The notes below the pieces were generated by a model that did not search any database, was not told the DNA's origin, and saw only the letters and a list, made by a program, of their open reading frames with translations. From contig JAUYRZ010000027.1 of the NCBI GenBank assembly GCA_030695565.1, forward strand, positions 62,001-126,000: DNA of 64,000 nucleotides. The letters are read 5' to 3'. Position numbers and translations under genes: made by a program. Source of the stretch: Archangium sp. Lineage in GTDB: Bacteria > Myxococcota > Myxococcia > Myxococcales > Myxococcaceae. This document shows positions 9,426 through 61,671 of the stretch, piece after piece. The stretch's first letter is position 1. Each line of letters begins with the position of its first letter.

Positions 9426-9470
9426 GGCCCCTCACCCCGACCCTCTCCCCGCTTCGCAGGGCGAGGGAGA
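9426..9470. repeat. Dispersed palindromic repeat, family A copy 1
   Basis: An imperfect inverted repeat with a CCCTCACCCCGACCCTCTCC arm, then a short variable loop and a GGGCGAGGGAGA arm. It lies between the divergent GIN-domain gene and ftsX. The same module is found at 21533, 21623, 26978, 48897 and 56086. It could act as a hairpin in mRNA or as a REP/MITE-like element. Confidence 0.75.
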
Positions 9471-17998: not shown

Positions 17999-18072
17999 GG
18001 CTGGTTCTCTGGTCGCTCCGCCTCGGCGCATCTTCCGCTTCGCTTCAGCTGCGCTCGCCCAGCCTTCCGCTG

Positions 18073-18099
18073 GACCGGCTCGCTCCGGTCAATAATTCG
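18073..18099 (+). terminator. Possible intrinsic terminator after the PEGA-protein gene
   Basis: A perfect GACCGG/CCGGTC stem with a six-base loop is followed by AATAATTCG rather than a run of T. It lies about 75 bases past the stop codon. A weak but plausible terminator. Confidence 0.35.
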
Positions 18100-21532: not shown

Positions 21533-21560
21533 CCCTCTCCCTCCGGGAGGGGTGAGGGCG
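21533..21560. repeat. Dispersed palindromic repeat, family A copy 2
   Basis: CCCTCTCCCTCCGGGAGGGG followed by TGAGGGCG, just after the GT2 stop. It is a short member of the repeat family described at 9426, in the orientation where the TGAGGGC flank lies on the right. Confidence 0.65.
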
Positions 21561-21622: not shown

Positions 21623-21662
21623 GCCCTCTCCCCAACCCTCTCCCCCTCGGGGAGAGGAGAGC
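21623..21662. repeat. Dispersed palindromic repeat, family A copy 3
   Basis: GCCCTCTCCCCAACCCTCTC followed by CCCCTCGGGGAGAGGAGAGC. It has the family A flank and palindrome and lies between the terminator and the 3' end of the helicase gene, about 60 bases from copy 2. Confidence 0.7.
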
Positions 21663-26977: not shown

Positions 26978-27004
26978 ACCCTCTCCCCCTCGGGGAGAGG
27001 GAGC
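26978..27004. repeat. Dispersed palindromic repeat, family A copy 4
   Basis: ACCCTCTCCCCCTCGGGGAG followed by AGGGAGC, between the convergent crotonase and receiver-XRE genes. It keeps the palindrome but not the left CCTCACCCCG flank. It could serve as a hairpin terminator for either gene, though no T run follows. Confidence 0.7.
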
Positions 27005-43820: not shown

Positions 43821-44617
43821 GTGGTTTCTCGTTCAACCGCGTGAAGGCCGTGCTTTGGAAGGACCTGCTCGAGCTGCGAAAGAACAAAGGCATGATCTGG
43901 TCGCTGCTCGCGTTGCCGACGGTGATCGTGCTGGTGCCGCTGGGCATCGTGCGCACCTACGTGCGGAACCCGAGCGACCCGAACTTTCGGGCCATCGCGC
44001 TCTATTACGACTTCACCGTCGACACCGACAGCGCGGCGCGCTTCCTGGTCGACAAGGTGCTGGCGGATTGGTTCGTGCTGTACCTGATGATGCCGGTGTT
44101 CGTGCCGATCCTCATCTCGTCGCACGCCGTGGCGGGTGAGAAGGAGAAGCGCACGCTCGAGCCGCTGTTGAGCTCTCCGGTGACCCCGCTCGAGCTGGTG
44201 ATCGGCAAGAGCCTCGCCTCGCTCATTCCTTCGGTCTCGGTGTGCCTGCTGGCGTTCGTCTGCCTGTGCATCGGCGTCGATCTCGTCGCGTGGCCGTTGG
44301 CGCACAGCTTCATCTTGCCCAACGCGATGTGGACGTTCGGGGTGCTCATCATCGCGCCGCTCTTCGCGTTCTTCGGCAATGGCGTGGCGGTGTTGATCAG
44401 CGCGCGGGTGGGTGACAGCCGGTTGGCGCAGCAGCTGTCGGGCTTGTTCGTGTTGCCGTTGGTGGGGCTGGCGGCGGGCCAGTTCGGCGGCGTGCTGAAG
44501 GCGGGCCCGGAGTACTACGCGCTGATCGGCGGCATCGTGCTGGTGCTCGACATCGGCATTCTCTTCAGCGCCAGGCGGTTGTTCGATCGCGAGCGGCTGA
44601 TGTCGCGCTGGGGCTGA
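43817..44617 (+). CDS. ABC-2 type transporter permease
   Basis: 266 residues with six predicted membrane helices. A short N-terminal cytosolic part (VLWKDLLELRKNKGM) precedes the first helix, and the GEKEKRTLEPLLSSPVTPLEL segment is typical of ABC-2 permeases, the coupling helix region. It is the membrane partner of the preceding ATPase. The start is GTG inside the ATPase stop. The direction of transport is export by family. Nothing identifies the substrate. Confidence 0.87.
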   Translation: MSGFSFNRVKAVLWKDLLELRKNKGMIWSLLALPTVIVLVPLGIVRTYVRNPSDPNFRAIALYYDFTVDTDSAARFLVDKVLADWFVLYLMMPVFVPILISSHAVAGEKEKRTLEPLLSSPVTPLELVIGKSLASLIPSVSVCLLAFVCLCIGVDLVAWPLAHSFILPNAMWTFGVLIIAPLFAFFGNGVAVLISARVGDSRLAQQLSGLFVLPLVGLAAGQFGGVLKAGPEYYALIGGIVLVLDIGILFSARRLFDRERLMSRWG

Positions 44618-44626
44618 CCACCGTTC

Positions 44627-44652
44627 GCGTCGAGCGCAGTCGAGATGCCACC
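44627..44652. repeat. Dispersed repeat, family B copy 1
   Basis: CGAGCGCAGTCGAGATGCC followed by ACC, between the convergent ABC permease and methyltransferase genes. The same 22 bases recur at 50875, and related sequence at 50915, 60111 and 61622. Confidence 0.65.
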
Positions 44653-44656
44653 CTCG

Positions 44657-48494: not shown

Positions 48495-49499
48495 ATGGCC
48501 TCCGAAGCCCAGTGGCGAGCGGCGCGGGCGCGCGTGCAGCTGTACGCGGCTCTTCGCGCCTGGTTCGGTGCAGCGGGGTACCTCGAGGTGGAGACGCCGA
48601 CGCTGGTGCCCACGCCGGGGCTCGAGCCGCACATCGATCCATTCGAGGCGCCGTTCATTCCGCAGACGGGCGTGGGGGCGCGGCGGTCGTTGTGGCTCCA
48701 CACCAGCCCTGAGTACGCGATGAAGCGCCTGCTCGCGGATGGAAGTCCGCCGCTGTTTCAGATCTGCAAGACGTACCGGAACGGGGAAGTCTCAGGCACG
48801 CACAACCCCGAGTTCACGATGCTGGAGTTCTACCGGCCGCACGCCGATTACCACGCGATCATGGACGACCTGGAGCAAGCGCTCTCCTCTCTGGAACTCC
48901 CTCTCCCGTCGGGAGAGGGTCGGGGTGAGGGCCAAATCTTCTCATCCCGCCCGTACGAGCGCCTCACCGTGCGAGACGCCGTGTTGCGCCACACGGGAAT
49001 CGATCTCTTCGCTCACCCCGACGGCGCCTCATTGAAACGAGCCGCCAAAGAGATCGGAGTCCACACCGGAGACTCGACCGACTTCGACGACGTCTTCTTC
49101 CACATCTTCCTCGAGCGGGTGGAGCGCCAGCTGGGCCACGGCCGGCCCACCTTCCTCATCGAGTACCCCGCGTCGATGGCCTCGCTCTCCAGGCTCAAGC
49201 CGGGTGATCCACGAGTCGCCGAACGCGTCGAGCTGTACGCAAACGGCGTCGAGCTGGCGAACGGCTTCTCGGAGCTCATCGATCCCATCGAGCAACGAAA
49301 GCGGCTGATGGAAGAGCAAGCGCTGCGCCGTTCACTGGGCCGGCGGGTGTTCGACCTCGATGAAAAATTCCTCGAAGCGCTGCCCAAGATGCCGCCTTCG
49401 GGGGGCATCGCAGTCGGTCTCGACCGCGTGTTGATGTTGCTGTTGGGCGCGTCGGAGATCGCCGACGTGTTGCTCTTCCCCGCGCGCGATTTCGTCTAA
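48495..49499 (+). CDS. epmA: EpmA-like EF-P (R)-beta-lysine ligase, with in-frame repeat insert
   Basis: 334 residues, a class II lysyl-tRNA synthetase-like catalytic core without the tRNA-binding domain. Seen: [15 protein letters not shown], motif 2 [22 protein letters not shown] in pieces, [12 protein letters not shown], and motif 3 [18 protein letters not shown]. It is expected to add beta-lysine to elongation factor P. Residues about 135-146 ([10 protein letters not shown]) come from a dispersed family A palindrome lying in frame, at a surface insertion point after motif 2. The gene remains open, so the insert is tolerated. Family members lack it. It abuts the MaoC stop. Confidence 0.9.
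48897..48933. repeat. Dispersed palindromic repeat, family A copy 5 inside the epmA CDS
   Basis: CTCCCTCTCCCGTCGGGAGA followed by GGGTCGGGGTGAGGGCC, in the orientation opposite to copies 1 and 6. It contributes about 12 codons in frame without a stop. Confidence 0.8.
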
Positions 49500-50775: not shown

Positions 50776-50870
50776 GGCGCCAGCGACGGAGGCCGGCGCT
50801 CCAGAATTCGAACGACCCCCGATCATCCCGCTCCACCGGGTGATTTTCTTCGAAGGAACAGGCACCTTTC

Positions 50871-50942
50871 GCATCGAGCGCAGTCGAGATGCCACCTCTG
50901 CGCCGCGCGGCAAGTGACCCCTCGACTGGGCTCGGGGTGACC
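50871..50942. repeat. Family B repeat pair (copies 2 and 3), inverted
   Basis: CATCGAGCGCAGTCGAGATG (with CCACC) is followed 17 bases on by TGACCCCTCGACTGGGCTC with CGGGGTGA, a variant in the opposite orientation. The pair fills much of the 227 bases between the small secreted gene and plsC, and could fold as one hairpin. Confidence 0.55.
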
Positions 50943-56085: not shown

Positions 56086-56123
56086 GGCCCTCACCCCGAC
56101 CCTCTCCCGAAGGGAGAGGGAGA
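56086..56123. repeat. Dispersed palindromic repeat, family A copy 6
   Basis: GGCCCTCACCCCGACCCTCT followed by CCCGAAGGGAGAGGGAGA, the clearest full copy, right after the GH3 gene stop and before the retropepsin-like gene start. The stem is CCCTCTCCC/GGGAGAGGG with a short GAA-type loop. Confidence 0.8.
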
Positions 56124-59286: not shown

Positions 59287-60569
59287 GACGACTCCCCTTC
59301 GAGACGCTTTCTCAACAGATCGAGGGCGGTGGTGCTGGCGAAGCTGCGCACGCGCTCCCGATCTCCGTGGAAACGGTGCTTCACGACCTTCACGCCGTCG
59401 GGCCCCGCGATCCCGATGTAGACGGTGCCCACGGGGTTCTCAGCGTCACCACCCGACGGCCCTGCCCAGCCGGTGGTGCTCAAAGACCACTGCACGCCGG
59501 TGTGCTCGCGCACGTTCTTCGCCATCGCTTCGGCGCACTCAGACGAGACGGCGCCGAACTGGGCGATGAGCCCCTCAGGCACGCCGAGCCACTGGGTCTT
59601 CGCTTCGTCCAGATAAGTGGCCGCGCCGCCGTAGAACGACTTGCTCGCGCCGGGTGAAGCGGTCAGTTGCTCCGCGATCATTCCGCCGGTGCAGCTCTCG
59701 GCGAGCGCGAGAAATTCTTTGCGCGCTTCGAGGCGGGCCAGCACCACGCCGGGCAACGTCTCTGCGTCGCGGCCGAAGCAGGTCGGCCCCAACACGGCAC
59801 GCGCTTCGTTCACCACCTGCTCGAGCAGCGCGCTCGTTTCGGCTTCGGTCGCGCCGGTGGCCAGCAGCTTCAAGTGATTCTCAGGCGGGTGCGTGCGGAA
59901 ACCGAACAGCACCTTCGGGTACTTCACGGCGAGCGGCGCCACGCGTTCATCGAGGTGCGACTCGGGAAGCCCGGTGGTCTTGAGCAGCGCCAGCTTGCGC
60001 ACTTCGGGCGAGCCCTTGAGCGCGGCGATCCGGGGCACCACGTGCAGGCCGACCAGGTGGCGGTATTCGCGCGGCACGCCGGGCACGAAGAAGACGAGGC
60101 AGCCCCCGTTCATCCCGAGCGGAGTCGAGAGGGCACCTGCCGGAAATCGCTGGATGAACATCGGCGCGCTGCCTTCTTGATTGAGCACCACCTCCGCGCC
60201 CTGCGGCACCTGGGCCTGCCGGCGGTTGTTTTCGGAGAGCACGATGCCGCGCGCCTTGAACCGCTCTTCGATGTGCCGCAGCGCTGTGTCGCTCTGCACC
60301 AGCGGCACACCCGCCGCGGCGGCCGCGCATTCGGCGGTGAGATCATCGGAGGTCGGGCCGAGCCCACCGGAGACCAGCACCACGTCAGCGCGGGAGACCG
60401 CCTGCTGCAGGGCCTCGATGATGTCCGCTCGATCGTCGCCCACCACCACCCCGCGGCGTACGGTCAGGCCGGTGCGGTCGAGCAGCGCCTCCTGAAAGAA
60501 GCGGCTGTTCGTATCGCTGGTCAGCCCGGTGAGGAGCTCGTCCCCGGTACAGATCGTCTCGATGCGCAC
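59283..60569 (-). CDS. cinA: CinA family protein, with an in-frame repeat insert
   Basis: 428 residues from a GTG (the usual VRIETICTGDELLTG start); a TTG at 60596 adds nine residues. N-terminal MoaB/molybdopterin-binding-like domain (GLGPTSDDLTAE) and C-terminal NMN-deamidase CinA domain (ESCTGGMIAEQL, STTGWAGPSGG). The pyridine nucleotide cycle and competence are associated by family. Residues about 143-153 (GALSTPLGMNG) arise from a family B repeat, expanding the loop between SAPMF and FFVPGVPRE beyond the usual length. Confidence 0.93.
   Translation of the reverse strand: MRIETICTGDELLTGLTSDTNSRFFQEALLDRTGLTVRRGVVVGDDRADIIEALQQAVSRADVVLVSGGLGPTSDDLTAECAAAAAGVPLVQSDTALRHIEERFKARGIVLSENNRRQAQVPQGAEVVLNQEGSAPMFIQRFPAGALSTPLGMNGGCLVFFVPGVPREYRHLVGLHVVPRIAALKGSPEVRKLALLKTTGLPESHLDERVAPLAVKYPKVLFGFRTHPPENHLKLLATGATEAETSALLEQVVNEARAVLGPTCFGRDAETLPGVVLARLEARKEFLALAESCTGGMIAEQLTASPGASKSFYGGAATYLDEAKTQWLGVPEGLIAQFGAVSSECAEAMAKNVREHTGVQWSLSTTGWAGPSGGDAENPVGTVYIGIAGPDGVKVVKHRFHGDRERVRSFASTTALDLLRKRLEGESS
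60111..60139. repeat. Family B repeat copy 4, inside the cinA CDS
   Basis: CATCCCGAGCGGAGTCGAGA followed by GGGCACCTG. It lies in the coding strand of cinA and is read in frame without a stop. Confidence 0.6.
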
Positions 60570-61454: not shown

Positions 61455-61671
61455 ACCAGCCTGTGTGCGGCGCGGCGGGGGTCGATCGACGTTCCCCGGG
61501 GGCGGCACTTCTTCGCGCTCGACGTCGCCCCGGTCTCGTGATGCGCCCTCGGCCATGGCGGGTTGAACCGGCTGGGGGAGCGGGCATTCCAGCTGCGCAG
61601 GTTCCTGCGCTGTGCCTCCGTGCATCCCGAGCGAAGACGAGGGGGTTCTTGCCCGGGCTTCCGGGTCTTTC
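61455..61671. other. 217-base gap upstream of pssA holding a repeat copy
   Basis: Between the end of the beta-helix lipoprotein gene and pssA. It holds family B copy 5 and nothing gene-like. The pssA promoter should lie here; I see no convincing boxes. Confidence 0.5.
61622..61645. repeat. Family B repeat copy 5
   Basis: GCATCCCGAGCGAAGACGAG followed by GGGG, in the same orientation as copy 4, and the most degenerate member (GAAGACG instead of GCAGTCG). Confidence 0.45.

Follow-up and report, generated by a model that had tools for sequence, protein, structure and literature searches.

The repeat within the epmA gene

The window, i.e. the whole stretch of 64,000 nucleotides that was analysed, belongs to an Archangium genome (G000) of 8.5 Mb in 134 contigs and 100% completeness. 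At 48495-49499, on the forward strand, it contains an open reading frame for a protein of 334 aa, which matched the TIGR00462 model with 360 bits, above the equivalog cutoff of 287. The closest PDB entries are the E. coli and Salmonella GenX/YjeA proteins, and the top fold match of the structural model was E. coli GenX (3a5z), with a TM-score of 0.86 and 38% identity. This reading frame is a genuine EpmA (GenX), the EF-P lysine aminoacylase, and an EF-P with a KPGKG loop is encoded in the same genome.

Inside the gene and in frame with it lies the short palindrome that an earlier note on this DNA had described there. It occupies 48897-48932 on the forward strand, causes no frame break and encodes 12 aa, residues 135-146. 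After a leading CT, the C-rich arm CCCTCTCCC (48899-48907) is followed by a first loop, GTC (48908-48910), and by the first G-rich arm GGGAGAGGG (48911-48919), which pairs with the C-rich arm; a second loop, TCG (48920-48922), leads to the second G-rich arm GGGTGAGGG (48923-48931), the would-be third, reverse-Hoogsteen strand, and to a final C. Among copies of the repeat the first loop varies in length, mostly 3-12 nt, and in sequence, while the second loop is TCG in 106 of the parsed copies. The segment 48899-48931 fits with zero mismatches the TM_ECO pattern, CCCTCNCCC-N3-6-GGGNGAGGG-N3-GGGNGAGGG (Holder et al. 2015, PMC4666352), and by inspection its last block could form a third strand on the hairpin through nine G.GC or A/T.AT triads. 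Judged by this pattern, the epmA repeat is a complete copy of the G/C-rich intrastrand triplex motif TM_ECO, or PIT element. An Rfam search of the window gave no match.

The AlphaFold model of EpmA has a mean pLDDT of 94, with low values only around residues 131-150 (69 and 66, by blocks), between the helix 119-131 and the strand 155-158. The repeat-encoded residues lie within a 15-residue gap of the best PDB alignment. The surface turn at which the insert had been placed before thus corresponds, in the model, to an exposed, low-confidence coil, in a loop that is 18-43 residues long in a set of 43 homologues. Since the invariant EpmA columns are all retained in the insert-bearing protein, the loop is that variable and the low pLDDT values are confined to this stretch, the repeat is likely a tolerated extension of a surface loop.

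Copies in the window, the genome and other genes

A search of the whole G000 genome with a 21-mer core, at up to two mismatches, returned 281 + 298 = 579 matches compared with 1 + 1 for the reversed control. The genome search that the earlier note had proposed thus identifies the palindrome as a dispersed repeat and not as ordinary coding sequence. The strict TM_ECO pattern matched 179 times in G000 (0 for the reversed control), 310 times in G004, a member of the same genus, and 580 times in G012, from a sister genus, whereas the published survey, with 3610 occurrences in 262 proteobacterial genomes, found at most 143 per genome (PMC4666352). By the core search, the counts in other members of the genus lie between 1 (G001, an incomplete genome) and 497 (G003), and many sister genera lack the repeat. 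Presence was almost all-or-none by genus, e.g. G012 and G070 versus G016 and G020.

The five other copies listed before in the window proved to be of unequal quality. Those at 9429-9469, 21624-21658 and 56088-56122, all on the reverse strand, are complete: the first lies between divergent genes and is also present at the same site in G003, the second, which has 2 mismatches, between convergent genes, and the third between tandem genes. The remaining two, read by eye, are a degenerate or partly deleted copy at 21533-21558 on the forward strand and, at 26979-27004 on the reverse strand, a truncated one that consists of the hairpin and lacks the third, G-rich block. The gap of G003 that is orthologous to the one at 56088 has no TM copy and holds a different repeat instead. 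This is a relative of a second dispersed family built around CGAGCGCAGTCGAGATG, which is found in the window at 44617-44656, 50861-50900, 60102-60141 and 61614-61653. A further repeat of about 80 nt, at 18000-18090, has many matches of 85-97% across G003 and G004.

The location of the copies was determined in a sample of 1.40 Mb, 87.5% coding, with a home-made gene caller. Among 167 sampled copies, 118 were intergenic, 24 lay over gene 3' ends, 2 over 5' ends and 8 at contig ends, while 15 (about 9%), the epmA copy and 14 others, were intragenic, some of which could reflect wrongly called starts or merged genes (L200, L191, L187). The density of copies between genes was about 65 times that within genes, with its maximum in convergent gaps; as the sample was picked mostly around copies, the proportions are meaningful and the absolute densities are inflated. 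In tandem gaps the orientation bias was not significant (35 versus 25). Over gene 3' ends, 20 copies were in sense and 4 in antisense orientation, and by hand count 14 of the 167 provide the TGA stop codon of the gene, together with a C-terminal ..PSPxGRGSG-like tail. Examples of such stop-supplying copies in the G000 sample are C114:192003-192046, L183:10116-10150 and L206:10313-10347.

Besides EpmA, the intragenic copies firmly assigned by Pfam/NCBIfam matches are located in the linker of PabA-PabB, in the N-terminal linker of RecG (two copies), between the two nucleotide-binding domains of a sugar-type ABC ATPase, in QueA (L223:9882-9922), in the linker of TonB and in the C-terminal tail of a HemG-like protein. 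The QueA copy is perfect, in frame and restricted to G000; the gene is empty in G003, G005 and G002, with a possible remnant in G004. G000 and these three empty relatives form a clean filled/empty pair for insertion junctions. G000 and G003 both have the element at the same place in the PabA-PabB linker, and between the two species the frame changes are compensating. From these locations the TM repeat would regularly add small peptides to working proteins, in EpmA and in other genes. Open-access full text, searched with the sequences tried, contained nothing on TM-encoded peptides.

History of the EpmA insertion

The EpmA loop carries the element in G000, G003 and G004, and is without it in the congeners G005, G002 and G001 and in all the other family members examined. 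The homologue alignment that had been proposed as a check gave the expected picture, with the insert missing from most EpmA homologues. In a tree of EpmA without this loop, combined with RecG, in which the bearers were tested against G005 and G002, the three bearers formed a clade with a support of 99/98. Since the same loop is filled in G003 and G004 and empty in three congeners and in the rest of the family, the element probably entered it a single time, in the ancestor shared by the three-species clade. The same two sister species contradict the view of the earlier note that the event is recent; with the element at the same loop, the insertion is neither very recent nor strain-specific. An assembly artefact was considered and ruled out, because the element is present at this loop in three separately assembled genomes.

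The loop measures 26, 25 and 30 residues in G000, G003 and G004, respectively, and 21 residues in the empty relatives G005 and G002, which indicates that native loop residues were replaced. The net length changes are +15, +12 and +27 nt, each a multiple of three. The figure of about 12 added residues given before holds for what the element encodes, but some 7-8 residues of the original loop gave way to it in G000, so that the net gain compared with the empty relatives is only 5 aa.

The three orthologous copies belong to different subtypes. This raises a less probable, although serious, explanation, namely that three lineages acquired the element independently, each from the subtype dominant in its own genome, the loop of EpmA being a hot spot or just a permissive site. 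Each of the three subtypes is common in its own genome, the left junctions differ between the three species, and the G000 epmA copy has zero differences from a paralogue elsewhere in the genome and 7 edits from its G003 orthologue. Moreover, the elements of the RecG linker sit at different positions in G000 and in G002, that of G002 being a degenerate match. However, orientation and frame are identical in all three EpmA copies, whose bearers form a clade. In a near-collinear region of 240 kb, G000 and G003 share nine sites, and the copies have the same orientation in 9/9 even though their sequences resemble each other little more than those of randomly paired copies (mean edit 7.1 versus 8.4, permutation p 0.055). 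Such shared sites with divergent subtypes suggest shared ancestry together with subtype turnover.

We therefore favour, with a probability of about 0.8, a copy of the TM_ECO/PIT repeat in a variable EpmA loop, gained in the ancestor of the three species, tolerated, most likely translated and later changed in subtype. In the common ancestor of G000, G003 and G004, a dispersed TM repeat would have landed in the loop that joins the motif-2 helix to the strand after it, and would have displaced about 5-10 of the native residues there. It would have survived because the element is open in 5 of 6 reading frames and the loop is tolerant of length change. The insert would be translated as a solvent-exposed loop rich in Pro, Gly, Glu and Arg, with a near-neutral effect on an EpmA that presumably stays active. 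Later, re-insertion or gene conversion between copies would have changed the subtype of the orthologous elements within each genome, with the frame kept.

Competing readings and related repeat families

The insert might instead have been kept because an RNA hairpin or a DNA triplex regulates epmA expression, and not because its peptide is tolerated. A 71-nt RNA with the epmA repeat has a predicted fold of -35.3 kcal/mol (z -3.2), and the triplex of the E. coli TM sequence was seen in vitro, although in vivo footprinting did not show it (PMC4666352). We consider this improbable: each of the three species has its own hairpin loop and junctions, copies lie in unrelated genes as well and, in the earlier work cited in PMC4666352, E. 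coli TM elements showed neither promoter nor terminator activity.

Movement of the repeat as a REP element by a RAYT (Y1) transposase is very unlikely. The size, the palindrome and the position close behind stop codons are REP-like, and the GTAG-/CGTC-tagged REPs (PMC3733652) are likewise short palindromes mostly behind genes, some intragenic, including in replication and repair genes, some giving a stop codon and some at approximately the same site in related species. However, the TM repeat has no GTAG tag in its flanks, and no Y1_Tnp (PF01797) match was obtained in the 100%-complete G000 or in six relatives with tens to hundreds of copies each (G002, G004, G005, G008, G013 and G017). The link to a RAYT was rejected on the latter ground. 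That the insert is ordinary coding sequence resembling the repeat by chance or codon bias has, despite its frame and the intact look of the enzyme, a negligible chance of being true, being refuted by the empty congeners and by a 21-mer core whose 579 occurrences compare with an expectation of 0.01 per window or, judged from the reversed control, of about 2 in the genome.

With TM_ECO/PIT, the repeat studied here shares the exact pattern, the nine perfect triads, many dispersed copies, the absence of a linked transposase and a patchy presence among close relatives. In E. coli TM_ECO is intergenic without exception, with no transposases close by (PMC4666352), whereas the sampled copies here include the intragenic fraction given above. 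The Rickettsia palindromic elements (RPE) are palindromic repeats that lie in frame within conserved protein genes, and for one RPE-bearing protein, Gmk, a review gives both translation and activity (PMC2229807). TM insertions are, in the same way, in frame in EpmA, QueA, RecG and PabA-PabB. The RPE differ in being 105-146 nt long (PMC2229807), compared with 32-46 nt for the sampled TM elements, in having unrelated sequences and in belonging to another phylum. By this analogy, the best reading is that the epmA repeat works like an RPE, though it is of a different family.

The edges of the element were also considered. Conservation stops there, with less than 0.3 bit per position on the 5' side, while on the 3' side only the three nearest positions reach about 0.3-0.7 bit, and no flanking target motif was found around the sampled TM copies. 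In the filled-versus-empty comparison of EpmA and QueA, where native bases were replaced, no target-site duplication of the kind left by a MITE was seen, a tentative negative given how far the relatives have diverged.

The repeat family itself is already known, as are in-frame palindromes in genes, in the RPEs and REPs. What is new is that the TM family does this as well, with many copies and no REP-type transposase in the genome, and that its orthologous copies agree in site, orientation and frame while their subtype differs. This repeat, present in more than 260 proteobacterial genomes, has no known function and no known mobilising enzyme. The Archangium lineage has many copies, some inside recognisable enzymes and some at species-specific sites, such as the QueA copy of G000. 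This allows a direct comparison of filled with empty sites, which makes two questions testable: by what route repeats that lack a transposase move, and how frequently short repeats contribute sequence to proteins. A speculative and rather doubtful answer to the first is that TM elements spread without a transposase by structure-driven copying, e.g. repair synthesis templated by the folded strand, which would replace target bases and be followed by concerted evolution in each genome. If true, the loops and C-termini of many myxobacterial proteins would be continually rewritten by one short repeat.
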